Below are positions 391 through 39,194 of a stretch of 42,320 bases of DNA, in pieces. The DNA comes from a virus. A program made the translations under genes and the position numbers. Location of the stretch: positions 1 through 42,320 of the IMG/VR virus record IMGVR_UViG_3300006802_000017; one strand, 5' to 3'. How positions within the stretch are numbered: position 1 is the first letter of the stretch; every line of letters starts with the position of its first letter. The notes below the pieces were generated by a model. That model was given only the letters and a program-made list of their open reading frames with translations, was not told the DNA's origin and ran no database searches.

Positions 391-393
391 GAG

Positions 394-2337: not shown

Positions 2338-2370
2338 GAAAGCCTCCTATTTCAGGTGTAAAGATTTACA

Positions 2371-4151: not shown

Positions 4152-4161
4152 GATTTATCTC

Positions 4162-27548: not shown

Positions 27549-27557
27549 TATCGGATT

Positions 27558-29186
27558 CTAGTCCAAAAATCTGCGCAATGCAGGTGAAAGCCCGGTCATT
27601 GGCCGTAACACTTTAACGAGGTGCCTGCGCCGCAAACCACCATCTATTGAGTCTATGCTTCCATTTGCCGTCGGGCCAGTGACCGAAGTGGTGCCCTGCG
27701 CCCAGACTGCCCCAACCGTCACGCCGCCAGATGCGGTCGGCACCGTAATTTGCGGGGAACCGTAGGCGTTTACAAACTCATCGGCAGTCGGTACCGAAAC
27801 CTCCGAACTGGACTCAACCCCATGACCTGACAGGTTATCAACCAATACCTCAGCGGCAGGAATTGAAACCCACGACTGGGATTCGACATCGTTGCCATCA
27901 AGCTGGTCAGGCTCATACGGTAACGGCTCATTGACCTCCGAGGATGACTCAACGCCGTGCCCTTTGAGGATATCCACCAGTACGTCGGCAGCAGGGATAG
28001 AAACCCATGACTCAGACTCGACATCGTTACCGGTCAGCTCGTCAGTGGCATTGTCAGTGGACGGGGTGCTGACTTCGGAATCCGACTCGACACCGTGCCC
28101 CTTCAGGACATCTACCAGTGCATCAGCGGTCGGTATCGAAACCCACGATTCGGCCTCGACATCGTTACCAGTCAGATCATCGGTGGCGTTATCGGTGGAT
28201 GGGGTGCCAACCTCCGAATTTGATTCAACGCTATAACCCTTCAGGTTGTCCTGCGAGCCAATATCAGCCGACGGAATGCTAAGGTGGCTTGCCGCCTCAA
28301 CATTATTGGCGACCAGTACATTGATGGGCCTTGCATTGCCGGTTGCCGTTGGGCTCGCGACGCTTGGTGTACCGAAAGCAACAAGGCTGGGTTTCTGGCA
28401 AGCGCCAGTGGCCGTCGGCCCGCTGACATTGGTGGTGCCAGCCGCCGTGAGGATGTTTCTTGTCTGACCAGACGAGGTTGGCCCGGTAACGCTTGGGGTG
28501 CCAGATAACAGCGAAATCTGCGTTCCGCTTGGCGTTGATACCTGAGAGTCGGATTCAACGCTGATGCCGCCGAGTGTGCTTTGATTGCCAATATCTGCCG
28601 TCGGAATACTCAGGTGGGACGCAGCCTCAATGTTGTCGCCACTGAGGTTATGAAACAGCTCAATATCGCCACTTGCGGTCGGGCTTGTTACGTTCGCTGT
28701 TCCAGAGGCCGTCAGGGGAGGCGCGGCCTCGGTGTACGTTATATCGACATCAACCGCGTCAACGTAGATCGTATTGAACGGCGGCTCGCCCAAGTACTGC
28801 GACGTAATACGGACCTGAGCGCCGTTGAGCTGCGCCTCGGTCCAGTCAGAGTCCCAAGTGGCGGTCGAGCAGGTAAAGTTCTGGAACCCCGTGGCGAGGG
28901 TCTTGGTTTGGGTGGTTCCCTGCTTGGTGCCGCCGATATACAGGTCAACCTGTATTCTCGGGGTTTTGCTGGTGGAGCTTGCCCTAGCCCGGACAACGAT
29001 ATTGACATCGGTAACCGTGTCTGCGTCGGAGACAGCGGTTGAGGTCAGGCTGATGGTTAGGGCATCGGCCTGAAACGTCGTTGACATGGTGTTGCCATCA
29101 GCAGAGGCAACACCTTCAGCTATGTCGGTGTAGGAGCCGGTTGGCCACCCACTGGCACCATTCGGTAGCAGTTTATCGGTGGCCAT
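27558..29186 (-). CDS. repeat-rich virion-type protein sharing repeats with the giant protein
   Basis: A 542-aa protein. Residues 1-150 look like a galactose-binding/jelly-roll beta-sandwich (VDLYIGGTKQGTTQTKTL; TIYVDAVDVDITYTEA). Then come ASG-x-P-x-VTGPT-x-G units like those in the 1786-aa protein. Five 45-46-aa repeats follow, each made of two 23-aa halves (NDVESESWVSIP... and GVESDSEVSTP...), and two further ASG-type units. The C-terminus is basic (LRRRHLVKVLRP). There is no signal peptide or catalytic motif. The common repeats tie it functionally to the giant protein; a surface fibre or adhesion role is inferred. Confidence 0.8.
   Translation of the reverse strand: MATDKLLPNGASGWPTGSYTDIAEGVASADGNTMSTTFQADALTISLTSTAVSDADTVTDVNIVVRARASSTSKTPRIQVDLYIGGTKQGTTQTKTLATGFQNFTCSTATWDSDWTEAQLNGAQVRITSQYLGEPPFNTIYVDAVDVDITYTEAAPPLTASGTANVTSPTASGDIELFHNLSGDNIEAASHLSIPTADIGNQSTLGGISVESDSQVSTPSGTQISLLSGTPSVTGPTSSGQTRNILTAAGTTNVSGPTATGACQKPSLVAFGTPSVASPTATGNARPINVLVANNVEAASHLSIPSADIGSQDNLKGYSVESNSEVGTPSTDNATDDLTGNDVEAESWVSIPTADALVDVLKGHGVESDSEVSTPSTDNATDELTGNDVESESWVSIPAADVLVDILKGHGVESSSEVNEPLPYEPDQLDGNDVESQSWVSIPAAEVLVDNLSGHGVESSSEVSVPTADEFVNAYGSPQITVPTASGGVTVGAVWAQGTTSVTGPTANGSIDSIDGGLRRRHLVKVLRPMTGLSPALRRFLD
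27770..28655 (-). repeat. in-gene repeats encoding five 45-46-aa VES-type units plus ASG-type units
   Basis: The minus strand encodes five copies of a 45-46-aa repeat. Each is a tandem of two 23-aa half units with the common pattern V-E-x-x-S-x-V-S-x-P-[ST]. Three copies adjoin (27780-28200) and two are separated by three ASG-x-P-x-VTGPT units (about 28300-28500). The half unit shows the same V-[ST]-x-P-[ST] core and length as the 22-aa unit of the giant gene, so both may come from one ancestral repeat. Boundaries are approximate. Confidence 0.85.
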
Positions 29187-29195
29187 TTTTGCCCC

Positions 29196-29576
29196 TTAGA
29201 CGGCGACTACATCCCGTATGGTGATACTCAAGGAGTTCAGCGTAAAGGAGTTTCCAGCGGTAACAACGACAGAGCCATTTAACGACCCAGAGGCCAACAC
29301 CTTGTCTGCACCGTTCGTTATGGCCCAGTACGTGGCTGTACCGCCCGTAGTAATACTGCCGTCGGTTACAGGCTCAGTGGTCACTCGCCTGCCGTCTGGA
29401 ACGCCACCACTGGGCGCGTTCACGGCAATAGGGTCCTTCTTACCAAGCCGGTTGGCGTTTACCGTGGAGTAGGTTCCTTGGGGGTCGCTGCCCGAAACAA
29501 TGTCCAACTGGGCGTTGGCAAAGGTATCGGCATAATCAAGACCGGAGTCAAATACATCGTCGTGAATAAAAGCCAT
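29196..29576 (-). CDS. small virion-type protein, paralogue of the 268-aa neighbour
   Basis: A 126-aa protein whose whole length matches the N-terminal half of the next gene upstream. Shared motifs are F-x-D-[DE]-x-FDSGL at the start, DGR-V-T in the middle, IT-x-x-GTAT-[HY]-WA-[IL]-T and AGN-x-F-x-L near the end, and I-x-x-RD at the C-terminus. It is beta-rich, without signal peptide or membrane helix. Similar proteins are frequent among structural genes of marine and freshwater phages. Virion location is inferred from operon position. Confidence 0.78.
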   Translation of the reverse strand: MAFIHDDVFDSGLDYADTFANAQLDIVSGSDPQGTYSTVNANRLGKKDPIAVNAPSGGVPDGRRVTTEPVTDGSITTGGTATYWAITNGADKVLASGSLNGSVVVTAGNSFTLNSLSITIRDVVAV

Positions 29577-29583
29577 ACATCAC

Positions 29584-30390
29584 CTATGTTCCGTAGGAGG
29601 CAATCAAAAGGTACTGCCCAGAGTCCAGCGCAGAACCGGTTGAGCCTCGCCTGATCTCAATGCTAATGGTTGATGACTGAATGGGATTGCCAACATTTGC
29701 GGTATTGGTGACCACAAAATCCGATAACGACAAGGCCCGCCACGTACCCGCAGGGGTGCTTCCTGTCACAGAGCTTGGCGTTTCACCGGACACCTGAAGC
29801 CAACGTACCTCATAATCGCCGGGAGCCTCAGAAACGGGTCGGCACCAGTCATCAGCCCATTCCGACGAAAACCTCGTTCTCAGCGGGTTGATGCTGCCTT
29901 CATCCTCGGAGTAATACGTGTACCCGTCCTGATCGACAATGATCCTCGCGTTAGCGGTAGTGGCGCTCTCCTTGGTTATCACCGAGGGGCCAGCATAAAG
30001 CGTAATGGTCGCGGTAACGCCCGCATCACGGTAATTGATGATAATGGGGTCAAGGCTGAACTTGTTGCCAGCGGTATACCCCTTGGACGAGGCCAACGCA
30101 CCAGAAGCTACCACGTTACTTCCGTCTGTCAGGGCCCAATGAGTGGCAGTCCCGGTATTGGTAATGGTGCCGTCATTGATCTGCGGGACGGTTACAATAC
30201 GGCCATCCTGAGCGCCATCGGCTGGCCCAGTAAGTACCAACCCCGTTTTGTTGCCAATGCTGTAACCGGTACTCGGGTTGGTCGCCAAGGTGTAATCGCT
30301 GCCGGGGTCGTCATCGCACAAATCAATACGGGTGCCGTCTTGGACCCAGTTAAGGCCAGAATCAAAACCTTCGTCATTCAAAAACGTCAT
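29584..30390 (-). CDS. virion-type protein with duplicated domain
   Basis: A 268-aa protein. Its first 130 residues match the 126-aa gene downstream (FDSGL; GRIVT; GTATHWALTDG; AGNKFSL; INYRD). A different beta-rich C-terminal domain follows, containing GDYEVRWLQVSGETPSSV and PIQSSTISIEIRRGSTG. The duplication and the separate extra domain suggest that the smaller gene arose by copying, or that the larger one arose by fusion. Location in the virion is inferred. It starts 2 nt after the 107-aa gene. Confidence 0.78.
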   Translation of the reverse strand: MTFLNDEGFDSGLNWVQDGTRIDLCDDDPGSDYTLATNPSTGYSIGNKTGLVLTGPADGAQDGRIVTVPQINDGTITNTGTATHWALTDGSNVVASGALASSKGYTAGNKFSLDPIIINYRDAGVTATITLYAGPSVITKESATTANARIIVDQDGYTYYSEDEGSINPLRTRFSSEWADDWCRPVSEAPGDYEVRWLQVSGETPSSVTGSTPAGTWRALSLSDFVVTNTANVGNPIQSSTISIEIRRGSTGSALDSGQYLLIASYGT

Positions 30391-30392
30391 AG

Positions 30393-30716
30393 TCAGTCAT
30401 CCTGCTCTAAGCCAGTACACGTAAACGAAACATTGGCACTTCCAGCGTACACTCGTACCACATCGGCGCTGCCCAGCATCAAGGTGGCGGTAGCCAAGGA
30501 ATTGTTGGCACTAAGAACAGTGTCATAGGCCACGTACTGGGTATTGTCCGTCGAAGCACCGTTCACTCCAACCGATACCCGAACCGTCGTCTCCGTGGAC
30601 CGATTGGTGCAAATTACCTTGACAGTGGCATTTTTGCTGGCCGGGACCGTATACAGGTCGGCCTCAGTGGTCGCGTTAGGTGCGGCTTGCCCCAAAACAC
30701 CCTTGATGGTCGCCAT
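30393..30716 (-). CDS. small structural-type protein, common phage family
   Basis: A 107-aa protein of a type I recognise from many phages: MATIKGVLGQAAPNATTEADLYTVP at the start, then NRSTETTVRVSVGVNGA, YVAYDTVLSANNSL and the ending DVVRVYAGSANVSFTCTG. This reads as an all-beta fold of one sandwich. It is usually placed among virion genes and annotated hypothetical. The ATG directly follows the stop of the 47-aa gene with no gap, which suggests coupled translation. Exact function unknown. Confidence 0.85.
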   Translation of the reverse strand: MATIKGVLGQAAPNATTEADLYTVPASKNATVKVICTNRSTETTVRVSVGVNGASTDNTQYVAYDTVLSANNSLATATLMLGSADVVRVYAGSANVSFTCTGLEQDD

Positions 30717-30860
30717 CTACCACTCCGAGAAGTATATCAACGCCTCATGGTCAGCCGGGGACCAGTGCGTACGCTGCGCAGACGCATCAAAACCCGCAAT
30801 CCAGTTGTTGATGTACCGGGCTATCTGCCATAACGGCCAGCGCTCATTGACAATCGCCAT
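30717..30860 (-). CDS. 47-aa tryptophan-rich small protein
   Basis: A short gene, ATG 30860 to TAG 30717, with an excellent ribosome site (GAGGAGG, 5 nt before ATG). The protein has four tryptophans and begins MAIVNERWPLWQIARYINNW, continuing as an amphipathic helix, and ends ALIYFSEW. It is the second gene of the late operon and is followed without a gap by the 107-aa gene. I do not recognise a family. Its strong translation signal and coupling argue that it is real. Confidence 0.72.
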   Translation of the reverse strand: MAIVNERWPLWQIARYINNWIAGFDASAQRTHWSPADHEALIYFSEW

Positions 30861-31251
30861 CAGCGCCTCCTCTTACCCTTCTTGCAGCCCATTTCTTGGC
30901 TCCCAAAGTACTCGGCAACCCATTCTACGACTTTTTATTGCGCGGGGGTAACCCGATTTTGGTGTTTGTAGCGTGGGGGATTATGCCAAGGCGACTATTT
31001 GGAATATGGGACCCAGCGGGTTTTGCCTGAGCCCGAGCCCGAACACGAACCAGCCCGAGCCAGCTGGTACGCGCCTGCTCTCAAGTACTTGGGCGTTACC
31101 CGGTAACAGGTACGGGATGCCCGGCTGACCTGTTGCTGGTATACCCAACCACACTTCGCACTTCGCACCGCACTCCAACCTGATGCTGGGGTATAGGGTG
31201 CTATGGGATGTATTGATACAGGGGCTGTCAGGCTGTCTGGCAAGGGTGTTA
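30861..31251. other. 391-bp non-coding gap with short tandem repeats, possible packaging site
   Basis: No convincing gene is present between the 47-aa gene and the small terminase gene. Two repeat clusters stand out: a period-6 run of GAGCCC/GAAC words at about 31030-31064, and a 7-nt repeat (CACTTCG x2, then CACCG) at about 31152-31173. Repeats close to the small terminase gene are where pac or cos recognition sites are often found, but this is inference. A weak frame with a TTG start at 31277 (98 codons) has no good ribosome site. Confidence 0.4.
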
Positions 31252-31845
31252 TCAGGGTGTTTCCGCTTGCCCCTCAATCAACGCCCCGTGTTCCCGGTCA
31301 ATGTTCAGAACTACGGTAATGCCGCCGACCTGATGCTGACTGAAATCCTCAGCTTCGGGGCTGGCCTGTAACAGCCTGTCAGCTGCCTTCCAATCACGTG
31401 CCGCAGCGCTGTCAATGTGCGCTATCCATTCGGCTAGCTTGCCCGCTCTCGCCTGCCTCAATTGTTCCGCAAACTGAGGGTCACTTGCCTGCCATTGCTT
31501 GAGGGTTTTGGGGTTGATGCCCGCCGCTGTAGCAGCCAGCTTTATGGATGCACCACGGCCCACAAGGTCGAGAATAAATGCCACCCGCTCAGCGCTACAT
31601 TTAGTCGGCCCCGTAAGCATTTGCGCGCGCTTCACAATAGGCAATTCGGCGGCAACCGATAACACCCCGCTAGCATCCGCTTGCCACCCTTCCCGCTTGG
31701 CGCGCTTGGCTATTCCCTGCTTTGTCGGTCGCCCGCCGAGGTCGCGACTGATCGCATAAGGCGATTGCCCCGCCTCAAATTTCATTTGTACCAGCTGCCA
31801 ATCAATCGGACCCCTCATGCCCGGTATTTTACCACGTTGGAGCAA
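31252..31845 (-). CDS. terminase small subunit
   Basis: A 197-aa protein. The N-terminal part (IDWQLVQMKFEAGQSPYAISRDLGGRPTKQGIAKRAKREGW) is a helix-turn-helix used by small terminases for DNA recognition. A second helical segment follows, GINPKTLKQWQASDPQFAEQLRQARAGKLAEW. The next motif AAARDWKAADRLLQAS is typical of phage small terminases. The likely start is either MLQRGK at the given position or MRGPIDW ten codons later; no clear ribosome site decides between them. It is the first gene of the late operon, five genes away from the large subunit. Confidence 0.85.
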   Translation of the reverse strand: MLQRGKIPGMRGPIDWQLVQMKFEAGQSPYAISRDLGGRPTKQGIAKRAKREGWQADASGVLSVAAELPIVKRAQMLTGPTKCSAERVAFILDLVGRGASIKLAATAAGINPKTLKQWQASDPQFAEQLRQARAGKLAEWIAHIDSAAARDWKAADRLLQASPEAEDFSQHQVGGITVVLNIDREHGALIEGQAETP

Positions 31846-32075
31846 TCGACGCTAAAAGCTTGACAGGGGCTAAATTTAGCAGTCCGGTAAAAACCCGAAA
31901 TCGGCATTAGACTGATTCTAAGCACCCCGTGAGAGCGCCTCAGAGCGCTTCTAAGGCACGATCTTTTTTTGAATACCAAGGTTAAGGGTCGAAGTTGCGC
32001 ATTGTGACGGGCCCTGTGCGCCGTCTCAGGGCATGGTCCAAGGTGGTCAATATAAGGCCAAAATCAGCCAATTGC

Positions 32076-32089
32076 TGTGAAATTTCACA
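32076..32089. promoter_or_regulatory. 14-bp perfect palindrome TGTGAAATTTCACA
   Basis: A perfect palindrome about 40 bp upstream of the -35 of the plus-strand promoter. The arms GTGA/TCAC and the AATT centre are shared with 32312-32325, but the spacing differs by two bases. It could be an operator for a dimeric regulator; CRP itself would want six bases between arms. Confidence 0.5.
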
Positions 32090-32109
32090 AGGTATTTAGC
32101 CCCTGCTAT

Positions 32110-32142
32110 CACGTACTAACAAAGTAGTTGCACGTACTAGCA
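32110..32142. repeat. two direct repeats CACGTACTARCA, 21 bp apart
   Basis: CACGTACTAACA at 32110-32121 and CACGTACTAGCA at 32131-32142 are spaced exactly two helical turns apart. The second copy overlaps the -35 and spacer of the promoter at 32128-32156 and the first is immediately upstream. This is the arrangement expected of binding sites on one DNA face for an activator or repressor. Confidence 0.6.
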
Positions 32143-32156
32143 CAAGCTGATATATT
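32128..32156 (+). promoter_or_regulatory. sigma-70-like promoter for the MoxR/VWA module
   Basis: TTGCAC (32128-32133), a 17-base spacer, and TATATT (32151-32156). Both boxes are close to consensus and the spacing is optimal. Transcription would begin near 32163 and give a leader of about 300 nt before the zinc-ribbon gene. No other start-like element lies closer to the genes. Confidence 0.7.
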
Positions 32157-32310
32157 CGCGTAGTGGGCATGGGCTCACGGCGCAAGCCGGTACCGCGACT
32201 AGGCGCGGGTCGAAATTCCTAAGGGTCCGGTCGCCGACCTATACAGGCGTACCAGCTGACTCCGCTACAGCGATGTTCCGCTTGCCCCGTACCGGCGCGC
32301 ACCCTCGGCT

Positions 32311-32326
32311 TGTGACAATTGTCACC
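32311..32326. promoter_or_regulatory. CRP-like palindromic site TGTGACAATTGTCAC
   Basis: GTGACAATTGTCAC (32312-32325) is a perfect 14-bp palindrome. With the preceding T it fits TGTGA-N6-TCAC, the core of CRP/Vfr-type sites. It lies in the transcribed leader, 11 bp before the left inverted repeat. Binding there could act as a roadblock, or it may be an unrelated operator. Confidence 0.4.
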
Positions 32327-32336
32327 CGTATTGACG

Positions 32337-32362
32337 CAAAATAATCCATTGGAAACTCCCCG
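32337..32362. repeat. left 26-bp inverted repeat bounding the MoxR/VWA module
   Basis: This 26-bp segment (core CAAAATAATCCATTGGAAAC) matches 36265-36290 in inverted orientation at 25 of 26 positions. The single mismatch is the T at 32357. It contains the small palindrome TCCATTGGA. It separates the upstream control region from the structured leader of the zinc-ribbon gene. Similarity ends abruptly on both sides. Confidence 0.9.
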
Positions 32363-32364
32363 TG

Positions 32365-32460
32365 GTGCTAGCCGTAAGGCTAGCCGGTAATCGTCCGCTG
32401 TAGCGCTTCTGAGGCGCTATGGCGGGCCGTTACTGATAGGGCCTTATGCCCCCACGGGAG
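32365..32460 (+). promoter_or_regulatory. structured leader with CCACGGGAG ribosome site, zinc-ribbon gene
   Basis: Three hairpins can be drawn: GCTAGCC-GTAA-GGCTAGC (32367-32384), TAGCGC-7-GCGCTA (32401-32419) and GGGC-5-GCCC (32439-32451). They are followed immediately by CCACGGGAG (32452-32460), 7 nt before the ATG. The order hairpin, then CCACGGGAG, then start recurs before the next three genes. The element may control translation or RNA processing. Confidence 0.65.
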
Positions 32461-32467
32461 TATCGCT

Positions 32468-32662
32468 ATGCCAACACCAAAATATGATTATGACGCAAGG
32501 CTGAAACAAACAGCCGATTGCCCGCATTGTGGGCAGCATTTCGATCAATTTGCCCGCCTTAATTGGCTGGGGTATTTCAACGCAAAAGACCGTTATAGCT
32601 GTAGTGAGTGCGGCGGGCGTTTCACTATTTGTGAGACAACCGGCGTGATTCGCAAAGCCTAA
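32468..32662 (+). CDS. zinc-ribbon protein
   Basis: A 64-aa protein with two CxxC knuckles, CPHC (C18, C21) and CSEC (C45, C48), separated by 23 residues, the layout of a zinc ribbon. The sequence around them (CGQHFDQFARLNWLGYFNAKDRY; CGGRFTICETTG) is hydrophilic and lacks any other motif. It is the first gene of the module and could be a DNA-, RNA- or protein-binding adaptor for the AAA+ ATPase. CCACGGGAG lies 7 nt before the ATG. Confidence 0.75.
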   Translation: MPTPKYDYDARLKQTADCPHCGQHFDQFARLNWLGYFNAKDRYSCSECGGRFTICETTGVIRKA

Positions 32663-32728
32663 TCATTCCACGGCATAGGGTCCTATCAGTAGCGGCTAAT
32701 CGCTACAACTACCACGGGAGATATACCA
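32663..32728 (+). promoter_or_regulatory. short structured spacer with CCACGGGAG, before the MoxR-like gene
   Basis: A weak ATAG/CTAT stem (32675-32686) is followed by a clear GTAGCG-6-CGCTAC hairpin (32689-32706) and CCACGGGAG (32712-32720), 8 nt from ATG. The last hairpin corresponds in position and sequence to GTAGC...GCTAC of the next two spacers. This is the shortest of the set and lacks the strong first hairpin. Confidence 0.65.
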
Positions 32729-33808
32729 ATGTTACTCAACATACCTACAGTCAATACATCCGAAGCAATCGACCTAATCGTTGCCGCTTCAAAGGTCCGC
32801 AATATGGGGCATGATTCTAGCTTTACCGGCATGCCCGTATTGCTGCTCGGCGAAGCAGGTTGCGGGAAAACATACGCCCCAACCGCAGCAGCCAAAATAA
32901 CCGAGGCTCAGTTTGCCGAGGTCCCGGCTATGTCGCTGTCGCCGTCGGATGCAACAGGGTCCAAGGCGTTGCCGGTACACGGGCAGCACGATCCTGACTA
33001 CGTGGTCCAATTGTTCCCTGATTACGTCAAAAACCTTGACCGCAATAAACCAGCGATCATCGTATATGACGAAGGCACTAAACCGCCGCTTGCAACGCGC
33101 AATGCGTTGCTGCAAATATTTCACTCGCGGCGGGCCGGGCGCTTTGAATTAGGGCGCGATTGGATGCTGGTAATGACCGGCAATGTTGCAAGCGCCAAGG
33201 CGGGCGATACGGACAACCCTTCCCCGTTTAGGTCACGGGTTGCTACATTTATGGTCCGCAATTCCTGCCAGCAATGGTTGGATAACTTCGCGATACCGAA
33301 CAACTTGCACTACAGCGTGACCAGCTTCATTAAGCACCACGCTGGCAACCCGCAATTTGATAAGTATCACGCTGGTCCGCTTAGCACTTGGGACCCAACC
33401 GAAAACCCCGCAGCTTATGGTTGTGAACGTAGTTGGACGAATTTGGCGAATGTCGCTGATTCGGGCGTTGACCCCAAGCTATTGGCATCAGCAATGATTG
33501 GCAACGAATTGGGCAACCTTTATTGCCAACACCTCGACACGCTGGCTGAAATTACGGACTTCGACCTAATCAAGCGGGAACCGGCAACGGCACCCGTCCC
33601 TGATGACATTATGATTTGCCACTACATTGGCAATATGGTGGCATATTGGGCTGATCGGGCCAGCATGGATGCGATTGCAACATACCTCAGGCGCATGCCC
33701 GCCGAGTGTGCTGTGGTAGCGATGACCGAAATCGCTACACGGCACCCGGACTGCAAAGAAACCCGCGCCTATATTGATTTTAGGCTTGAATACAAGCTTA
33801 GCCTGTAA
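32729..33808 (+). CDS. MoxR/CobS-like AAA+ ATPase
   Basis: A 359-aa protein. Walker A is GEAGCGKT (residues 41-48). Walker B is IIVYDEGTK, followed by the MoxR-like stretch PPLATRNALLQIFHSRR. Sensor 1 is in VMTGN, and a possible arginine finger is in FRSRVATF. MoxR-type ATPases remodel partner proteins and are usually paired with a VWA-domain protein (RavA-ViaA, CbbQ-CbbO, NorQ-NorD, CobS-CobT); such a partner is encoded two genes downstream. The C-terminal 150 residues are helical with several histidine/cysteine positions and no recognised motif. The substrate in this phage is unknown. Confidence 0.85.
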   Translation: MLLNIPTVNTSEAIDLIVAASKVRNMGHDSSFTGMPVLLLGEAGCGKTYAPTAAAKITEAQFAEVPAMSLSPSDATGSKALPVHGQHDPDYVVQLFPDYVKNLDRNKPAIIVYDEGTKPPLATRNALLQIFHSRRAGRFELGRDWMLVMTGNVASAKAGDTDNPSPFRSRVATFMVRNSCQQWLDNFAIPNNLHYSVTSFIKHHAGNPQFDKYHAGPLSTWDPTENPAAYGCERSWTNLANVADSGVDPKLLASAMIGNELGNLYCQHLDTLAEITDFDLIKREPATAPVPDDIMICHYIGNMVAYWADRASMDAIATYLRRMPAECAVVAMTEIATRHPDCKETRAYIDFRLEYKLSL

Positions 33809-33905
33809 AGAGTAACGCCCCTGCAAAGGGGTGTTACCTGATGCCGCTGGTTATCCGGCGGCATTGGGTAGCGCCTTGCTACAAAAAACCACGGGAGATT
33901 AACCA
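33809..33905 (+). promoter_or_regulatory. three-hairpin spacer with CCACGGGAG, before the DUF3150-like gene
   Basis: Three consecutive hairpins: GTAACGCCCCT-GCAA-AGGGGTGTTAC (33812-33837, 11 bp with one G-U), ATGCCGCTGG-TTAT-CCGGCGGCAT (33841-33864, 10 bp) and GTAGC-5-GCTAC (33868-33882). Then come an A run and CCACGGGAG (33889-33897), 8 nt from ATG. The fold and much of the sequence are repeated at 34809-34903. No strong T run follows the first two hairpins, so they are not ordinary terminators. Confidence 0.8.
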
Positions 33906-34808
33906 ATGAACGCATTTATAAATTATGACGCACCCAGCGTCGCCGAAACGCACGTATTAGTTAAGCTAGAAGCAAGCTTTCCCCCGGCATCAAAGCAATC
34001 AGAAAAGGCAAAGGCAGCAATTGTCGCCGATATGGTTGCACAAGGTGCCGACCGGGAAACCGCCGAGGCTATGGCGAAAGGCTCAGGTGACCTTTTCCCC
34101 GACGGGGAATTGAAAGATATCAAGAGCCCCTATTACAGCTTCAATACGTTTTTGGAGCGGGTTTCTATTCGCTGGCTCGGCGGCAAAGGTGCGCCGCGCC
34201 TTGTTTCGGTTCATATGCTCGACAAAATCGAACAGCGCTTTACCGAGGCGCAGCTTGTAATGTTGCCGCTGATTGAGGCATTCAAGCGCGATTACGTGAA
34301 AACCTTGGACGCATTGGAAAACCGGACCGGCCATTATTTTGCCCGCTCCGATTACCCGACAGCCGAGGAAATCGACAGGAAATTCCGCTTCGATTTGACT
34401 TTCACGCCAATCGGCGACCCGCGACAGTTTGATATGGGCGCGGTATCGGAAACGCATAAGCGCCGAATGGTTGAAGCGCTAAATGAACAGGCGCAAGCAG
34501 TTACCAAAGAGTACGCCGAAAGCATTAGATCAGCGCTGCAACAGCTTAGCGCCCAATTAATTGGGGGCAAGGGTGCCGACGGCAAATATATTCGGTTTTC
34601 CGAATCCAATGTTAGCAACCTGTTGGAGTTGGTCGAGGCTAATCTGAACGCCTCAGGCGATCAGCAACTTGCTGAGGCATTGACCGACGTTAAGCGCGCC
34701 GCCGAATTGGCCGCTAATGCCGCTCGGTATAAGGACGATAAAGCGGTTAGAACCAGCGCCGCGAATGCCGCTAGCAGTGCGGCTAACAAATTGGCTGGCC
34801 TTTTCTAG
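33906..34808 (+). CDS. DUF3150-like protein of the MoxR/VWA module
   Basis: A 300-aa, mainly helical protein. The middle part has the pattern I associate with DUF3150 proteins: a long helix (LDKIEQRFTEAQLVMLPLIEAFKRDYVKTLDA), then YPTAEEIDRKFRFDLTFTPIGDPRQFDM, then another long helix (THKRRMVEALNEQAQAVTKEYAESI). The C-terminus is alanine-rich (AAELAANAARYKDDKAVRTSAANAASSAANKL). DUF3150 genes are often placed between CobS-like ATPases and CobT/VWA-like genes in phages; the molecular role is not known. It probably bridges the ATPase and the VWA protein. Confidence 0.7.
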   Translation: MNAFINYDAPSVAETHVLVKLEASFPPASKQSEKAKAAIVADMVAQGADRETAEAMAKGSGDLFPDGELKDIKSPYYSFNTFLERVSIRWLGGKGAPRLVSVHMLDKIEQRFTEAQLVMLPLIEAFKRDYVKTLDALENRTGHYFARSDYPTAEEIDRKFRFDLTFTPIGDPRQFDMGAVSETHKRRMVEALNEQAQAVTKEYAESIRSALQQLSAQLIGGKGADGKYIRFSESNVSNLLELVEANLNASGDQQLAEALTDVKRAAELAANAARYKDDKAVRTSAANAASSAANKLAGLF

Positions 34809-34903
34809 GCTTGTCAGTAACACCCTATCAGGGTGTTACCTAATGCGGCTCGATTTTGGGCCGTATTAGGTAGCAATCCTGCTACACCCACGGGAGAAAA
34901 CCA
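34809..34903 (+). promoter_or_regulatory. three-hairpin spacer with CCACGGGAG, before the VWA/peptidase gene
   Basis: Same architecture as 33809-33905: GTAACACCCT-ATC-AGGGTGTTAC (34817-34839, 10 bp), a CTAATGCGGC/GGCCGTATTAG stem (34840-34869, 10 bp, one G-U) and GTAGC-6-GCTAC (34870-34885). Then CCACGGGAG (34888-34896), 7 nt from ATG. Stretches such as AGGGTGTTACCT are shared with the previous spacer. Stems keep their pairing although several bases differ, which suggests that structure is maintained. Confidence 0.8.
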
Positions 34904-36256
34904 ATGGATGTTAATAAACTTATCATTGACCTTTTAGTTGTGCTGATTCAATCGCCGTATACCTTTGTTAAGGCTATGGGATTTCGGCTCGCTGCGATGA
35001 AGCGCGAAATTACCGAAACCCGCACTAAAACAATGGCCGTTGACGGGGTGACGTTATTTATAAACCCGCATTGGACCTCGGCGCAATCGAAGGTAAAGCT
35101 GTTATTCGTGCTGTTGCATGAGGCATGCCATGTATGGATGTTGCACCCTAAGCGCTTGCGGGACATATACCCCAGCCAGCGTGATATCGTGCATCAAGCC
35201 GCTGATTACGTGGTCAATCTAACGTTAGAACAGGCACGTTGCCCGTATCCTATGCCGGATGACGCGCTAATCAATCGCGACTACGTTGATGCTAATTGGA
35301 AATGCTTGAACGTTGAACGGGTTGTGCAATTGCTGTTGCAGCAACCGCCGGAACAGCCGGAACAGCCGGAACAACCGCAACCGCCCGAGGGTGCCGATAC
35401 GGACCCCGGCGACAGCGGGCAAGGCGGGCAACCTGATGACGAAACCGACAGCGAAACCGAAACCGGGAAAGATACCGGCGACGGTGACGAAAGCGGTGAC
35501 GAAAGCGGTGACGGCGACGGCGACGAACAGGGTACCAGCCAAACTAATGGCGGCAACGGTTCAACGCCTGAAAGCTGCGGAGAACTACTCCCCGCACCTG
35601 ATGATCTTGACGAACAGGAACACGTTAAGCGCAATGAACAGGCGTTACAGCTGGCTAGCAGCGGCGCGGGGTCAATGCCCGCGAATATGCTTGAGGAATT
35701 GCATCATCAGGCGCAAGGTAGCGCGACCGATTGGCTGACAGCGTTCAAAGATAGATTCGCAACCGCAGTTGACGCTAGCGATTGGAGTGAGGAGCGGTTT
35801 AACCAGCAATATGCCGCTATCGGCATGATTGAACCGACGTTATACACGGAATCAGTCGGAACCATTGCTATCGTGGTTGATGAATCTAGCTCAATGGATA
35901 ATGACCAGCTGAACCGCGCGACCGAACAGGTGGCCGCGATTGTTAGCGAATGGACTCCGCAGCGTGTCCTAATTATTCGCCATACGGCCATAATTGAGGA
36001 CATTCAAGAGCTATTCTACGGGCAACAGCCGGAACCACGTGAAAAGCGGGCCCACGGAGGCACCTATTTTCGACCGGTAATCGAAAAGCTTGAGGACGAA
36101 ATCATTGATGTAGCATGTTGGGTGACCGACTGCATGCCAATGGATTCGGTACCTGATGCAAGCTTTCCGATAATTTGGCTCGGTACCGGATACGGCGCTG
36201 AACGCTGTTATAACACGTACAACCTGCAAGGCGATTTCGTTAGCATTGACGAATAG
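34904..36256 (+). CDS. metallopeptidase/VWA-like protein (PF13203/DUF2201-type) with acidic linker
   Basis: A 450-aa protein in three parts. The N-terminal peptidase-like domain has the zinc motif LLHEACHVWMLHPKR (about residues 71-85; HExxH plus following H). The linker (about 148-230) starts with PEQ repeats and becomes an Asp/Glu/Gly/Ser-rich run. The C-terminal VWA-like domain keeps a MIDAS D-E-S-S-S (VVDESSSMD, about 323-331), the threonine in AHGGTYFRPVIE and WVTDCMP. An acidic linker between N-terminal and VWA domains also occurs in CobT. It is probably the substrate adaptor of the MoxR-like ATPase. Whether the peptidase is active is unknown. The stop lies 9 bp before the right inverted repeat. 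Confidence 0.85.
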   Translation: MDVNKLIIDLLVVLIQSPYTFVKAMGFRLAAMKREITETRTKTMAVDGVTLFINPHWTSAQSKVKLLFVLLHEACHVWMLHPKRLRDIYPSQRDIVHQAADYVVNLTLEQARCPYPMPDDALINRDYVDANWKCLNVERVVQLLLQQPPEQPEQPEQPQPPEGADTDPGDSGQGGQPDDETDSETETGKDTGDGDESGDESGDGDGDEQGTSQTNGGNGSTPESCGELLPAPDDLDEQEHVKRNEQALQLASSGAGSMPANMLEELHHQAQGSATDWLTAFKDRFATAVDASDWSEERFNQQYAAIGMIEPTLYTESVGTIAIVVDESSSMDNDQLNRATEQVAAIVSEWTPQRVLIIRHTAIIEDIQELFYGQQPEPREKRAHGGTYFRPVIEKLEDEIIDVACWVTDCMPMDSVPDASFPIIWLGTGYGAERCYNTYNLQGDFVSIDE

Positions 36257-36264
36257 CCAAGCTG

Positions 36265-36290
36265 CGGGGGGTTTCCAATGGATTATTTTG
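36265..36290. repeat. right 26-bp inverted repeat bounding the MoxR/VWA module
   Basis: Inverted copy of 32337-32362 with one mismatch in 26. It begins 9 bp after the VWA gene stop and overlaps the last codon and stop of the convergent resolvase-like gene (TAA at 36283-36285). No hairpin terminator is present between the convergent genes. No target-site duplication is evident outside either repeat. Confidence 0.9.
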
Positions 36291-36681
36291 GCAGGTCGCT
36301 GATTGACCGCTCAATGGATGCAACGGTGTCGCCAATATTTTGCGTATAGCGCATGAACGCCGCCAGCTGGACCGGGGTCATTTCGACCACGCAGCGCCAC
36401 GGCTCATTATTTTGGCGGTAAGCGACCACGGGGTACTCTCCCGAGCCATTAGCGCTGAGCCGAGCCTGTTTCAGCCAATCGTTGAGCCGCAACACCTCTT
36501 GGCGCTTGACCTCAATTTGGCACTGAGCCGCCGAGCCATCCGAGCCACCTTCTCGCGACTGAGCCAACTCCCTGCTGAGCCTGAGCCTTTCAGGCAAAAA
36601 TTTGTTCAGAATGGAAAAAAACTCGCGCTCTCCGCGAGCCCCTTTCTCTCGCCTTCCTTTATGTGATTTCGGTTTAGCCAC
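36283..36681 (-). CDS. Holliday-junction-resolvase-like PD-(D/E)XK nuclease
   Basis: A 132-aa protein with a basic start (MAKPKSHKGRREKGARGEREFFSI) containing the early glutamate of the family. Then comes REGGSDG and the metal-binding core QIEVKRQEVLRLNDW (E-x-K). This is the pattern of small phage and archaeal-type Hjc-like resolvases and related endonucleases. It would cut branched DNA before packaging. Translation begins at GTG 36681 with an AGGAG 8 nt upstream, and the gene overlaps the nuclease gene before it by 76 nt. The last codons lie in the right inverted repeat of the module. Confidence 0.78.
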   Translation of the reverse strand: MAKPKSHKGRREKGARGEREFFSILNKFLPERLRLSRELAQSREGGSDGSAAQCQIEVKRQEVLRLNDWLKQARLSANGSGEYPVVAYRQNNEPWRCVVEMTPVQLAAFMRYTQNIGDTVASIERSISDLPK

Positions 36682-36995
36682 CCGTTTATCTCCTCAAGCA
36701 GCTCGCGTTCCGAGCCAAACTCCCTTACAAACAACTTCTTCTCTCTAGCCATAGAAGGACCAAACACCGCCTTCATTTTACTCATCGTGATGTTCAGGTT
36801 TTCCCGCTCCCCGCGATGGTGCCAGATACATAGCGGTATGGTGTGATCGTGGCCGAGCCGATATCCCTCAACGATATGGTGGATTTCGACCGTACCCACA
36901 CTGAGCCCACGTTTTCTACAGGCCATGCAGCCATAAACCTTGAGCATATAGAACCGCTCGCGGTCAGTCTGACTTATAGGCTTGCATTTCGGCAC
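36606..36995 (-). CDS. Ref-family-like HNH nuclease
   Basis: A 129-aa protein with a CxxC (GCMACRKRG), then VEIHHIVEGYRLGHDHTIPLCIWHHRGE. This is the His-rich HNH core of phage P1 Ref-type recombination-enhancement nucleases (IHHI...R-x-G-H-x-H-TIPLC-x-x-HH). The two cysteines plus histidines probably bind zinc. Ref cuts within RecA-made D-loops; the present protein may act likewise with the host RecA. It starts at GTG 36995 with a GAGG 8 nt upstream, and overlaps the preceding gene by 32 nt and the resolvase-like gene by 76 nt. Confidence 0.85.
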   Translation of the reverse strand: MPKCKPISQTDRERFYMLKVYGCMACRKRGLSVGTVEIHHIVEGYRLGHDHTIPLCIWHHRGERENLNITMSKMKAVFGPSMAREKKLFVREFGSERELLEEINGWLNRNHIKEGERKGLAESASFFPF

Positions 36996-37305
36996 GTTTT
37001 GTTGCCTCCATCGACTGCCACAAACTACTTCCCTGCATCGCGATACGAAGGTGCCATCCTTCTTTCTCCGCTATTTCCGTGGCTTCGCGCAATCCCTCCA
37101 GAATTTCCAGATACTCAGGATGACAGCGAGCCTCGCGCTCCTGAGCATTCACTGTGTCAAAACCCTTGGCTGCATAATCCCGCATCAGCATCGCCAGCTT
37201 TGATTTGCGGTAGTGGTCAAGGTACACCATGTCGGCTTTCGCTTTGGCGTAGCGGTCGGCCTGCTGGCGTAGCTCGTTGAGCCTTACTTCCAATTCTTTG
37301 AACAC
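36964..37305 (-). CDS. helical early protein of unknown function
   Basis: A 113-aa protein, almost wholly helical with coiled-coil character at the N-terminus (LEVRLNELRQQADRYAKAKADM) and Ala/Glu-rich helices later (EGLREATEIAEKEGWHLRIAMQG). I know similar small proteins from phage recombination gene groups, without function. It begins at GTG 37305, two nt after the stop of the HTH gene. No strong ribosome site is visible (GGCG about 8 nt upstream), so coupling to the HTH gene is probable. Confidence 0.75.
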   Translation of the reverse strand: MFKELEVRLNELRQQADRYAKAKADMVYLDHYRKSKLAMLMRDYAAKGFDTVNAQEREARCHPEYLEILEGLREATEIAEKEGWHLRIAMQGSSLWQSMEATKRAEMQAYKSD

Positions 37306-37307
37306 AA

Positions 37308-37514
37308 TCAGTCGCCGTAAAGCCGACGCAATTCTTCGCGCCGCTCCACCAGCTTGGCGCGCAGGTAAATTTGCCGCGCCCTGTTGCCGCTAATGCCCCA
37401 CCGTTTGCCGATAGCAACGTAGGTTTCGCCAGCTTCCCTTGCCGCGACAATTAAAGGATTGCGGTATTTGCGCTTGCGCTGCCAATCCGATTGTTGCTGT
37501 GCTTTCGTTCCCAT
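37308..37514 (-). CDS. small HTH-domain DNA-binding protein
   Basis: A 68-aa protein. ATG 37514 is chosen because it begins the conserved-looking part and has GGCGG 4 nt upstream. A longer reading from 37586 would run through the hairpin at 37532-37557. Residues about 20-50 form a helix-turn-helix (IVAAREAGETYVAIGKRWGISGNRARQIYLRA), close to those of sigma-like and resolvase-like regulators. The C-terminus is basic (LVERREELRRLYG). A transcriptional regulator of early phage genes is likely. It starts about 10 nt after a terminator-like hairpin, which may attenuate its own expression. Confidence 0.75.
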   Translation of the reverse strand: MGTKAQQQSDWQRKRKYRNPLIVAAREAGETYVAIGKRWGISGNRARQIYLRAKLVERREELRRLYGD

Positions 37515-37524
37515 TTTTACCGCC

Positions 37525-37557
37525 AAAAAAAGGCCCCCAACAGTTACGAAGGGGGCC
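37525..37557 (-). terminator. rho-independent terminator or attenuator, minus strand
   Basis: GGCCCCC-12-GGGGGCC stem (37532-37538 with 37551-37557) followed on the minus strand by a run of seven T (37525-37531). It lies between the 78-aa gene and the HTH gene, so it would reduce reading into the recombination genes unless antiterminated. On the plus strand the same hairpin precedes a fifth CCACGGGAG at 37570. Confidence 0.75.
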
Positions 37558-37569
37558 AAGCTCTCAGTG

Positions 37570-37742
37570 CCACGGGAGAGTGCCACATGAAACGATTATT
37601 TACGGACACGATACCAGTTCCAGAGCATTCTCGCGACCCTGCTCCAAATCATCCTCTAGCAGCATGGTGCTACAGTCAAATTGCAGGTTCACCAAATCTC
37701 CACGATCCAGCCAGATATGGATTTTACCGTCTCGGGCCTTGA
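37570..37742 (+). other. fifth CCACGGGAG element with a doubtful 51-codon frame
   Basis: CCACGGGAG at 37570-37578 lies 8 nt before ATG 37587, exactly as in the MoxR module, after a strong hairpin. The frame runs 51 codons (MKRLFTDTIPVPEH...) to 37742 but lies antisense to a better supported minus-strand gene. It has a composition typical of a shadow frame. It may be a copied leader element without a gene, or a real overlapping gene; I favour the former. Confidence 0.3.
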
Positions 37743-37836
37743 TGTCAGCCAAATTATCGACAGCAACGGTTAACTTGAACCTGCGGTTTTCTTCCATCGG
37801 GAACCGCTCGACTGTTGCTCTCTTAATTTTCTTCAC
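37600..37836 (-). CDS. small early protein, unknown
   Basis: A 78-aa protein starting at GTG 37836, chosen because GGAG lies 6 nt upstream and the GTG overlaps the previous stop as GTGA. A basic N-terminus (MKKIKRATVERF) is followed by a beta-strand pattern (RFKLTVAVDNL; KIHIWLDRGDLVNLQF) and an acidic helix (LLEDDLEQGRENALELV). The first part (VDNLADIKARDGKIHIW) suggests a small beta-fold. No family recognised. It is followed by a strong terminator-like hairpin. Confidence 0.7.
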   Translation of the reverse strand: MKKIKRATVERFPMEENRRFKLTVAVDNLADIKARDGKIHIWLDRGDLVNLQFDCSTMLLEDDLEQGRENALELVSCP

Positions 37837-37994
37837 ATCACGCTCCGAACGACGAACAAGAATAAGGTCAGGCTCGTACATGCTAGGATAATAACAGAAA
37901 ACGCTAGCCAGCGAATAGTTTTTTCATAACGCTCAACTAATTGCTGGTAAGCAAGCATTCTGTTTTCCAATATAACGATTTCTTCAATGCTCAT
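37833..37994 (-). CDS. 53-aa membrane protein, first gene of early minus operon
   Basis: A short gene from ATG 37994 with an ACGGAG 6 nt upstream. The N-terminal half is an acidic/amphipathic helix (MSIEEIVILENRMLAYQQLVERYEKTI). The C-terminal half is one transmembrane span (WLAFSVIILACTSLTLFLFVV) with a two-residue tail. Such a small tail-anchored protein made early could block superinfection or alter the host membrane, but nothing specific is seen. A GC-rich hairpin (38011-38038) lies just upstream. Confidence 0.7.
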   Translation of the reverse strand: MSIEEIVILENRMLAYQQLVERYEKTIRWLAFSVIILACTSLTLFLFVVRSVM

Positions 37995-38010
37995 AAATCA
38001 CTCCGTAAAA

Positions 38011-38038
38011 GCCGGGCACTGGGCCCTCCCGCCCCGGC
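38011..38038 (-). terminator. hairpin before the 53-aa gene, weak terminator or leader structure
   Basis: GCCGGG/CCCGGC stem with a 16-nt loop, followed on the minus strand by TTTTA. It is in the leader of the minus transcript that starts near 38237, and just before the ribosome site of the first gene. It may be an attenuator. The T run is short and termination is uncertain. Confidence 0.4.
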
Positions 38039-38219
38039 CAATAAACTGGTCTTAATGGGTTGGGTGTCCCGCCGTTTCGCCCGACCTTTATCCTCGTCGT
38101 CAGGTGCTTGCTTGAGTTACGGTCAAGTGTAGGAATAACACCGACCGGTATTGCTTGGGAGACATTATTGGATTATTCTGGACAGGAAATCCGGTTCAGT
38201 CTCCAAACCTCACCGGTAG

Positions 38220-38246
38220 CGCCCCCGTCAGGGGGCGTTTTCTTTT
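38220..38246 (+). terminator. rho-independent terminator, plus strand
   Basis: CGCCCCC-GTCA-GGGGGCG (38220-38237) followed by TTTTCTTTT. It points right, although no plus-strand gene precedes it closely, so it may stop antisense reading from the MoxR/VWA module. Read on the minus strand, the same stem forms the very 5' end of the transcript from the promoter at 38244-38272 and could protect it. Confidence 0.75.
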
Positions 38247-38272
38247 ATACCGAAGTTGATCCAGCTTGGCAA
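38244..38272 (-). promoter_or_regulatory. sigma-70-like promoter of the minus early operon
   Basis: On the minus strand TTGCCA (38272-38267), a 17-base spacer, TATAAA (38249-38244). Both boxes are near consensus. Transcription would begin near 38237 and run through the 53-aa, 78-aa, HTH, 113-aa, Ref-like and resolvase-like genes. The -35 box lies inside a perfect 18-bp palindrome. Confidence 0.75.
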
Positions 38273-38285
38273 ACGCTCGTTTGCC
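38268..38285. promoter_or_regulatory. 18-bp palindrome GGCAAACG-CT-CGTTTGCC, probable operator
   Basis: Perfect inverted repeat with 8-bp arms and 2-bp centre. It overlaps five of the six bases of the -35 element of the minus promoter. A dimer bound here would block RNA polymerase. The small HTH protein encoded downstream (37308-37514) is one candidate for autoregulation; this is inference. Confidence 0.6.
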
Positions 38286-38288
38286 ACG

Positions 38289-38354
38289 CCCCCCCCTCAG
38301 GAAAGCGGAACCTACGGAACCTGCGGAACCGAGGGGGGGGGAATTATTTTTTTT
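38289..38354 (+). terminator. second plus-strand terminator-like hairpin with GGAACC repeats in its loop
   Basis: CCCCCCCCTC (38289-38298) pairs with GAGGGGGGGG (38331-38340) over a 32-nt loop, followed by AATTATTTTTTTT. The loop contains three tandem GGAACC words (9-nt period). With the hairpin at 38220-38246 it makes two consecutive terminators facing right, so plus-strand transcription is strongly stopped before the divergent early region. Confidence 0.6.
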
Positions 38355-38359
38355 CACCC

Positions 38360-38458
38360 CTATCCGGCTGCAATCCAAAGCATCAGAAACAGCCCTATAG
38401 CGCAAATAATGGCTGCAATACCATCAGCTACCATCTCGTCCTTTTCCCAATCCTTCAT
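38360..38458 (-). CDS. 32-aa membrane microprotein
   Basis: A tiny gene, ATG 38458 to TAG 38360. GGGAGG lies 6 nt before ATG, and the start is one base after the stop of the 76-aa zinc-finger gene. The protein is a short acidic N-terminus (MKDWEKDEMVADG) and one transmembrane helix (IAAIICAIGLFLMLWIAAG). No homologue is known to me. Translational coupling and the strong ribosome site support it. Confidence 0.6.
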   Translation of the reverse strand: MKDWEKDEMVADGIAAIICAIGLFLMLWIAAG

Positions 38459-38459
38459 T

Positions 38460-38690
38460 TCATGCCTCCCAATGTCTTGCTCTAACCCGATTACTGGCCC
38501 AATAGCCCTTGTCATTCAGCCGTAAACGCGGCCTTCTCTGTTTATCCAGCACACGGGCAGGGTCCATACACTTGCGCGCTGTAGGCTCGCCCGCAAGGTG
38601 CATAGAGAAAGTGTAATCGCTGGTGAAATACTGGCCACACCTCGGACACTTGCAGTATTTGCTGCCAAACGGCAGTTTTGGGTCGCTCAT
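38460..38690 (-). CDS. small zinc-finger early protein
   Basis: A 76-aa protein with CPRC (C15, C18), H31 and C41, spaced as in a small C2HC zinc finger of phage early proteins (CPRCGQYFTSDYTFSMHL, later KCMDP). The C-terminus is basic (KQRRPRLRLND). It probably binds nucleic acid or a host protein. It starts one base after the stop of the 62-aa gene and uses a GAGG-type site. Function unknown. Confidence 0.75.
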   Translation of the reverse strand: MSDPKLPFGSKYCKCPRCGQYFTSDYTFSMHLAGEPTARKCMDPARVLDKQRRPRLRLNDKGYWASNRVRARHWEA

Positions 38691-38691
38691 C

Positions 38692-38880
38692 TCATTGCCC
38701 CCTCAGGACCGACATCGCTGCCTCGGCCCCACGTTTGGTTCTGAAGTACCGGGACTCTCGGGTGTATGGCTGGCCCTGCTTGTCCTTAAAGCCAAAATAC
38801 CAGCCAGACGGACTTTTTAGCACGACCAGCTTGGTGCCGGGATGTTCCGCCCCGGACATTACGGTTTCACGTATCAGCAT
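38692..38880 (-). CDS. small basic early protein
   Basis: A 62-aa basic protein (SPSGWYFGFKDKQGQPYTRESRYFRTKRGAEAAMSVL) with a beta-hairpin-like middle and C-terminal helix. It is first in the leftward early group and has GGGAG 8 nt before ATG, part of an ACGGGAG word like that of the MoxR module. Its promoter overlaps the rightward early promoter. No family recognised; DNA mimic or binding roles are possible. Confidence 0.7.
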   Translation of the reverse strand: MLIRETVMSGAEHPGTKLVVLKSPSGWYFGFKDKQGQPYTRESRYFRTKRGAEAAMSVLRGQ

Positions 38881-38897
38881 CTAGTTTCTCCCGTATG

Positions 38898-38926
38898 TTG
38901 ACATGATGTATGACTGAGTATACTAT
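38898..38926 (+). promoter_or_regulatory. sigma-70 promoter, rightward early operon
   Basis: TTGACA (38898-38903, perfect -35), 17-base spacer, TACTAT (38921-38926). Transcription should begin near 38933 and run through all genes from 38961 across the genome join to 139. Its -10 overlaps the -10 of the leftward promoter. Confidence 0.85.
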
Positions 38927-38944
38927 CACTATTCCAAATGTCAA
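38917..38944 (-). promoter_or_regulatory. sigma-70 promoter, leftward early genes
   Basis: On the minus strand TTGACA (38944-38939, perfect -35), 16-base spacer, TATACT (38922-38917). It drives the 62-aa, 76-aa and 32-aa genes. The two promoters face each other and share bases 38917-38926, so RNA polymerase can occupy only one at a time. Confidence 0.82.
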
Positions 38945-38960
38945 TTAAGGGAGACATTCG

Positions 38961-39194
38961 ATGAAGGTCAAATCTGGAATACCAATACCCACTGGTAATG
39001 CCAAGCAAAAGTATCCATTCGATCAAATGAACGTAAGGGACTCAGTGGAGTTTGACAGCACAGAGTTATTTCAAAAGGCTCGCCGCGCTGCCCAAGCTTA
39101 TGGCCGGAACCATAACATGGTGTTTGTTGCCCGTAAGGGTGTGCAGGATGGCGAGTTTGTCGGCGAAGGCGGCACAATCTGGAGAAAAAGATGA
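38961..39194 (+). CDS. first gene of rightward early operon, unknown
   Basis: A 77-aa protein: a proline-rich start (IPIPTGNAKQKYPFDQM), a turn region (VRDSVEFDSTELFQKARRAAQAYGRNHNMVF) and a glycine-rich end (GEFVGEGGTIWRKR). I recognise this as a widespread small phage early protein of unknown function; the helix AQAYGRNH with flanking strands suggests a DNA-binding or DNA-mimic fold. GGGAG lies 8 nt before ATG. The stop overlaps the next ATG (ATGA). Confidence 0.78.
   Translation: MKVKSGIPIPTGNAKQKYPFDQMNVRDSVEFDSTELFQKARRAAQAYGRNHNMVFVARKGVQDGEFVGEGGTIWRKR

Follow-up and report, generated by a model that had tools for sequence, protein, structure and literature searches.

A repeated three-hairpin RNA element with exchangeable ends between the genes of a phage MoxR-VWA operon

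What is the structured RNA that recurs ahead of the genes of a small phage operon, and what might it do there? The operon lies on the + strand of the 42,320-base IMG/VR virus record IMGVR_UViG_3300006802_000017 (hereafter the window, meaning this whole stretch) and comprises a short first open reading frame (ORF; gene 1), a MoxR-type AAA+ ATPase gene, a third gene, and a gene for a VWA-like protein, preceded by spacers 1 to 4, respectively. An earlier note on this DNA had described three hairpins in each of two spacers and proposed translational switches, RNA-processing sites, or a binding array for a phage protein, perhaps the zinc ribbon encoded by gene 1. We compared the window with four loci from related contigs, L004 and L005, which together with the window form what we call the window lineage, and L094 and L095. 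The comparison of sequences establishes the fold, its nature as a + strand RNA, its repetition before each gene, and its exchangeable ends, so that the element is almost certainly a cis-acting RNA; for its function we tentatively propose a switch operated by ribosomes.

The complete form of the element is found in spacers 3 and 4 and consists of hairpins A, B, and C. In element 2 (33812–33882, + strand) these occupy positions 33812–33837, 33838–33867, and 33868–33882, and in element 3 (34817–34885, + strand) positions 34817–34839, 34840–34869, and 34870–34885. Stem A has 11 and 10 base pairs, respectively, stem B 13, and stem C five, and the hairpins abut with no base between them; the three hairpins of the earlier note are thus real, although it had given stem B only 10 pairs. 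Spacers 3 and 4 fold with z-scores of -6.3 and -6.6, none of 200 shuffled sequences folding equally well. Across five spacers drawn from the window, L004, and L005, the folding z-scores range from -6.0 to -8.1 and all 144 pairs are standard (21 G-U, no A-C), again with abutting hairpins. As had been noted, these are not plain terminators: the C hairpins have no U run, the combination of a GC-rich hairpin and a U run that marks intrinsic terminators does not occur at the window elements, and no terminator-like site was found there on the + strand. For what follows, we call the 5′ and 3′ ends of hairpin A segments 1 and 2, and the 5′ and 3′ arms of hairpin C segments 3 and 4.

The strongest evidence for the fold comes from L094 and L095, which were obtained from the last viral scan, using a VWA alignment. 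In both, four genes are each preceded by an element, which makes eight copies in total, and none follows the VWA gene. The fold has thus been retained between phages with protein identities of only 24–37% in the aligned parts (window versus L094: ATPase, 24% over 271 columns; VWA protein, 37% over 115 columns), the third gene of L094 being merely a positional counterpart without detectable similarity to gene 3 of the window. Because MAFFT placed the two lineages out of register, we set the segments by hand to count pairs in 13 contiguous copies from the five contigs. All 13 show three abutting hairpins, and 368 of their 375 pairs are standard, which bears out the observation that the stems keep pairing although their bases differ. 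Pairing and covariation were also counted by a tool on each lineage apart. In these counts, slid controls paired in 28–46% of cells, against 95–100% in register, and 11 of 29 pairs changed on both sides in the window lineage (five sequences) and 10 of 28 in L094/L095 (eight sequences), values reached by none and by two of 500 shuffles, respectively, although these numbers are not probabilities since the sequences are related. Even between L004 and L005, the last element differs at five stem pairs (two on both sides and three on one, counted by eye) and none is broken. These two loci have just two differences in bases 1–7000 but 21 in 7008–7174, a stretch around the 3′ end of gene 3 and the last element that may be a hot spot or a locally recombined patch.

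The same counts bear on whether the conserved object is RNA at all. A DNA-level element, such as a cruciform or a recombination site, would agree with the inverted repeats and with a gene 1 slot that holds different genes in different phages. However, the 375 pairs include 50 G-U against four A-C, so that what is kept is pairing in the + strand RNA and not in both DNA strands. Integron attC sites, which are folded single DNA strands with R and L boxes, offer another DNA model, and the excess of G-U speaks for RNA there too. We therefore consider a DNA-level function very improbable.

An unexpected property of the element is that its outer segments match in more than one combination. Over the 13 copies, segments 1 and 2 pair in 63 of 65 cells and segments 3 and 4 in all 65, as required by hairpins A and C, but segments 2 and 3 also pair in 65 of 65 and segments 1 and 4 in 61 of 65. 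The letters change with the lineage (GTAGC, GATGC, GGTGC, and, in element 1 of L004 as judged by eye, GCAGT) and are matched within each copy; in crosses between the two lineages, none of 80 combinations gives complete pairing of segment 2 with segment 3. An alternative fold can thus be drawn in which 2 pairs with 3 and, for the most part, 1 with 4, making B five pairs longer, closing a three-way junction, and leaving C open. The covariation scores of this junction are similar to those of the three hairpins, and the two folds are computed to lie within 1.1 kcal/mol of each other in 11 of the 13 copies. An exchange of strands between the segments is therefore plausible.

Covariance models built from either lineage recover the other. 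Run with filters off, model R1, for which only L094/L095 were used, has the two window elements as its best matches (E 0.005 and 0.0057; next match 1.1). Model R2, for which only the window lineage was used, has the eight distant copies at the top under the same setting (E 5.8e-5 to 0.01, followed by 0.19). Part of these scores would be earned by any three abutting hairpins. With default filters, R1 yielded no match in the window lineage. On whole contigs it found four copies in L094 (30,891 bases) and four in L095 (13,755 bases), where the reverse strand gave weaker echoes at the same positions; L005 yielded no match. The covariance search and covariation test suggested in the earlier note have thus come out in its favor, with related elements found and covariation exceeding that of nearly all of 500 shuffles. 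A sequence-free descriptor combined with the rule that 2 must pair with 3 matches exactly two sites in the window, four in L094, and four in L095, and none in 40 shuffled windows; without that rule it additionally matches L004/L005 at 805–872. Its background over 78 unrelated loci (703,145 bases) amounts to 12 matches, three of them obeying the rule, of which two are the same element of Planktothrix phage Pag-Yong1.

Known families do not account for the element. No Rfam match at gathering level was found at the 12 of 13 copies scanned (the last element of L004 was left out); the window has one unrelated sub-threshold match, and a beta_tmRNA match that overlaps the third L095 element reaches 20.4 bits, where the gathering score is 84. 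A self-cleaving ribozyme was considered and rejected, because unpaired letters are hardly conserved and the scanned copies show no gathering-level match in Rfam. Our literature search found no description of such elements, which appear to be an RNA family absent from Rfam and repeated before each core gene. The gene 3 protein had no match in phage, plasmid, and genome contig collections, nor the ATPase in the genome contig collection, and searches of viral contigs with both led solely to the three contigs from which L003, L004, and L005 derive; the first VWA scan found no further relatives and the L094 gene 3 had no match in the phage collection. DNA patterns gave 13 stretches for CACGGGAGANNNACCAATG (the three known contigs, the rest being, by eye, ribosome-binding sites without hairpins), 32 for the C hairpin, and 38 for B, where only the three known contigs were real and the other 29 and 35, respectively, were dismissed by eye; these patterns fit the letters of the window lineage and not those of the L094 type, so no claim of rarity follows.

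The first two spacers of the operon, which the earlier note took for looser versions of the element, require a different explanation. Spacer 1 alone folds well (z -6.2), whereas spacer 2 alone folds no better than shuffled sequence (z -0.4 in the window and -0.05 in L004). Folded jointly with gene 1 between them, they reach -9.3 in the window and -6.2 in L004, because positions 32425–32450 pair with 32672–32697 in a 26-bp helix (32425–32697, + strand) that holds gene 1 in its loop. This helix contains the sole perfect 18-bp inverted repeat with a loop of 150–350 bases on the + strand of the window, and none was found on the - strand. Compared with L004, 13 of its 18 pairs are the same, three changed on one side, two on both, and none is broken, although the enclosed gene encodes a different protein there. 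The 5′ part of this element 1 (32387–32450, + strand) comprises hairpin A′, with outer segments at 32387–32391 and 32429–32433, and the 5′ arm of B′ (32433–32450); the 3′ part (32672–32706, + strand) comprises the 3′ arm of B′ (32672–32689) and hairpin C′ (32689–32706). Since its outer ends (GTAA..GTTAC, CTGAT..ATCAG, and GTAGC..GCTAC) match those of the full elements, we infer from these two sequences that spacers 1 and 2 are the halves of one element and that gene 1 is a cargo inserted in its B loop. An extra hairpin with a GTAA loop precedes element 1 (32367–32384, + strand), and its counterpart in L004 has other letters but the same loop.

How might such an element work? Its position relative to the genes provides the main clue: in the 11 of 11 copies that have an upstream gene, segment 1 starts 3–8 nt past the upstream stop codon, whereas hairpin C lies at a variable distance, 18–39 nt, from the next start codon. 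The footprint of a ribosome at termination should extend about 10 nt past the stop. When we masked these 10 nt in folding models of the same 11 copies, the probability of pairing between 2 and 3 was 0.48–1.00 in all of them, and with 13 nt masked it was 0.99–1.00. Segment 1, given its place just past the stop, would thus be covered by the ribosome completing the upstream gene; segment 2 would then pair with 3, and the stretch near the next ribosome-binding site would open. In this way, consecutive subunits of a complex could have their translation tied or tuned, gene 1 being in the window lineage a cargo within the B loop of the first element. That the element is a cis-acting intercistronic RNA whose ribosome-operated strand exchange tunes translation of the next gene is the mechanism we rank first, ahead of RNA processing and, third, insulation, although we hold it at somewhat below even chances. 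Its fuller version, a repeated switch in which the terminating ribosome flips the hairpins into the three-way junction and licenses each subunit gene, with cargo genes accommodated in the central loop, is rather doubtful.

Several observations weigh against a ribosome-operated exchange. The nine-base word that precedes each start codon lies mostly outside the helices, and the openness of the Shine-Dalgarno region barely changes in five models. In L094/L095, 26–39 nt separate hairpin C from the start codon, a distance at which opening C may leave the ribosome-binding site unaffected, and the first elements of these two loci have no convincing upstream ORF. The window copies favor the three hairpins by 3.0 and 4.0 kcal/mol, and the 1:4 pairing is broken in four of 65 cells. 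Moreover, if the ends of A and C were shared for another reason, for instance because one protein binds both, the 2:3 and 1:4 matches would arise automatically, which is why exchange is plausible but not proven. Finally, a screen reported in a review (PMC12548453), as summarized in the portion of that text used here, associated structure just past a stop codon with less coupling between genes.

The latter result is what would be expected if the elements were insulators, that is, structures that halt read-on and re-initiation past each stop and keep Rho off the spacer, so that genes start independently. The anchoring of the element at 3–8 nt past the stop in 11 of 11 copies, combined with its variable distance to the start, also suits this explanation. 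Nevertheless, insulation needs no particular architecture, it leaves the zero gaps and the exchangeable ends unexplained, and the first elements of L094/L095 have no clear gene before them to insulate; we regard it as unlikely.

A processing or stability cassette, second in our ranking, is well short of probable. The elements could mark or protect ends where the messenger RNA is cut into single-gene messages, or serve as RNase substrates, with the 26-bp helix as a candidate for RNase III. Stacked hairpins are in line with this idea, as are the GNRA loops of six of the 13 A hairpins. So is a type II hammerhead found after the VWA gene in both L094 (7416–7473, 40.5 bits) and L095 (7384–7442, 37.6 bits; gathering cut-off 37), ahead of the next start with a GAGGTGACT word, which implies that these phages carry RNA-cutting devices between genes here, although downstream of the operon and not at the elements. 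By contrast, no element follows the last gene, where end protection would want one, and A and B alone, at 10–13 bp, are short for RNase III. Hammerhead arrays flanking single genes have been described in phages (PMC3088659, in the part of that work used here), for which reason the hammerheads of L094 and L095 agree with processing.

The remaining possibility, an array of sites at which a regulatory protein or RNA binds to control all the operon genes jointly, seems improbable to us. In its favor, the closing sequences are common to the copies of one genome and differ by lineage (GTAGC/GCTAC versus GATGC/GCATC), and the two window copies are alike at 0.75, compared with 0.58 and 0.71 against their L004 counterparts. 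On the other hand, there are hardly any conserved unpaired letters and the loops vary freely. The zinc ribbon in particular is a poor candidate for the binding protein: the gene 1 slot holds a different ORF in each of the window, L004, L094, and L095, the relatives lacking the zinc ribbon there, yet the RNA elements persist. The family of structured RNA elements proposed in the earlier note is real, the role given to the zinc ribbon is unsupported, and the nine-base word is not a part of the element.

This word, CCACGGGAG, occurs as the note had reported, identical before all four genes on the + strand: at 32452–32460 (gene 1), 32712–32720 (ATPase gene), 33889–33897 (gene 3), and 34888–34896 (VWA gene), ending 7, 8, 8, and 7 nt 5′ of the ATGs at 32468, 32729, 33906, and 34904, respectively. 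AACCA lies immediately 5′ of the ATG twice, at genes 3 and 4, also as reported. In place of the nine-base word, L004/L005 have ATCACGGGAG and L094/L095 either GAGGTGACT or GAGGTAAC; starts of the CACGGGAG...ACCAATG style are present in unrelated phages in which the hairpins are absent. We thus read the word as the ribosome-binding site of the window lineage only, outside the conserved element. The sequence CTCCCCGTGG at 32356–32365 (+ strand) is complementary to the start word plus one extra base and could base-pair with that word ahead of either gene 1 or the ATPase gene; its L004 counterpart is CTCCCCGTGA, where the words are TCACGGGAG, and its partner differs between local and long folds. 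A fifth exact CCACGGGAG lies outside the module at 37570 (37570–37589, + strand), 8 nt before an ATG, preceded by a GGCCCCC..GGGGGCC hairpin and antisense to a predicted - strand ORF.

The genes served by the elements are, all on the + strand, gene 1 (32468–32662), a 64-aa zinc-ribbon-like ORF with a weak similarity under the Pfam cut-off that occupies the variable cargo slot; the MoxR-type AAA+ ATPase (32729–33808; phrog_1297, E 2.3e-37); gene 3 (33906–34808; 300 aa), without match in PHROG and Pfam; and a DUF2201 metallopeptidase-like/VWA-like protein (34904–36256; PF13203, PF09967, and phrog_1314). In L094, the ATPase probably starts at GTG 3447, and the position used in protein queries, 3438, adds three residues. 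Upstream of element 1, about 500 bases of leader (window 31850–32365) are conserved in L004, including the blocks TTGCGCATTGTGA and AGCGATGTTCCGCTTGCC, and no sigma-70-like promoter was found in this region. A candidate small ORF of 23 codons (32273–32344, + strand) has the same end point as an L004 ORF of 51 or 44 codons (4439–4594 or 4460–4594), and the indels between both (27, 18, and 18 nt) are all multiples of three; it is possibly a leader peptide or a small gene. The capsid and portal of the window phage resemble those of Myxococcus phage Mx8, Bradyrhizobium phage ppBjS10J-1, and Stenotrophomonas phage BUCT555.

A MoxR ATPase together with a VWA or metallopeptidase-type gene is also found in Schitoviridae phage SBP1, Pag-Yong1, and Roseobacter phage CRP-7. 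The module genes overlap or abut in SBP1, and most genes around the module are tightly packed in CRP-7, as judged from annotation and not from a sequence scan. Pag-Yong1 (OL906435; L096/L097) resembles the window in having hairpins in spacers of about 90 nt before several genes, and a MoxR ATPase in the gene run, but its hairpins differ in sequence and architecture, and one of its spacers meets the bare descriptor. That match belongs to other repeats and was not accepted as a copy of our element: the - strand genes at 26493–39495 are separated by repeated intergenic hairpins such as GGTTCAGCCTGAACC, including spacers of the CCCTCGC..GGCGATGGCCAG type of up to about 90–100 nt. From these arrangements, the element looks to be a property of some carriers of the MoxR-VWA module and not of the module itself.

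Among published systems, the nearest pattern that we found is that of the SAS/ESAS of Cluster K mycobacteriophages, in which, according to the parts of the paper used here (PMC3203893), a 13-bp word, GGGATAGGAGCCC, precedes the start and is accompanied by a 17-bp imperfect inverted repeat with a variable spacer. Both kinds of element recur ahead of numerous genes within a single phage and are linked to a conserved ribosome-binding word with inverted repeats just 5′ of it, and the SAS/ESAS sequence likewise shifts between phage subclusters. However, GGGATAGGAGCCC is absent here, where the words are those given above, three gapless hairpins replace the single repeat in 13 of 13 copies, the hosts differ, and exchangeable segments are not described in those parts. 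The hammerhead arrays of prophages, as presented in the portion of PMC3088659 used here, are also structured RNAs between phage operon genes; in contrast, the scanned elements have no hammerhead match and no conserved unpaired core. Closer to the mechanism that we tentatively prefer, a ribosome-operated exchange, are the rpmI-rplT and phage f1 VII-IX couplings, for which the consulted part of the review (PMC12548453) describes an upstream ribosome that refolds the next-gene region, as may happen here, and names attenuation as an analog; our element differs from them in being repeated and in having its start word largely outside the helices.

In trp-type attenuators, the 1:2 and 3:4 helices are mutually exclusive with 2:3, and a ribosome is the actuator. 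The same exclusive helices are found here in silico, and a ribosome is the actuator that we propose. Unlike in trp, 3:4 is no terminator and does not sequester the ribosome-binding site, the start word lying outside C, no regulatory codons are known, a stable hairpin B stands between 2 and 3, and a copy accompanies each core gene. If our reading is true, the element would be an attenuator-like device placed between genes and triggered by a ribosome at the stop codon, which would bear on how phages balance the subunits of MoxR-VWA complexes and could provide a compact part for synthetic operons.

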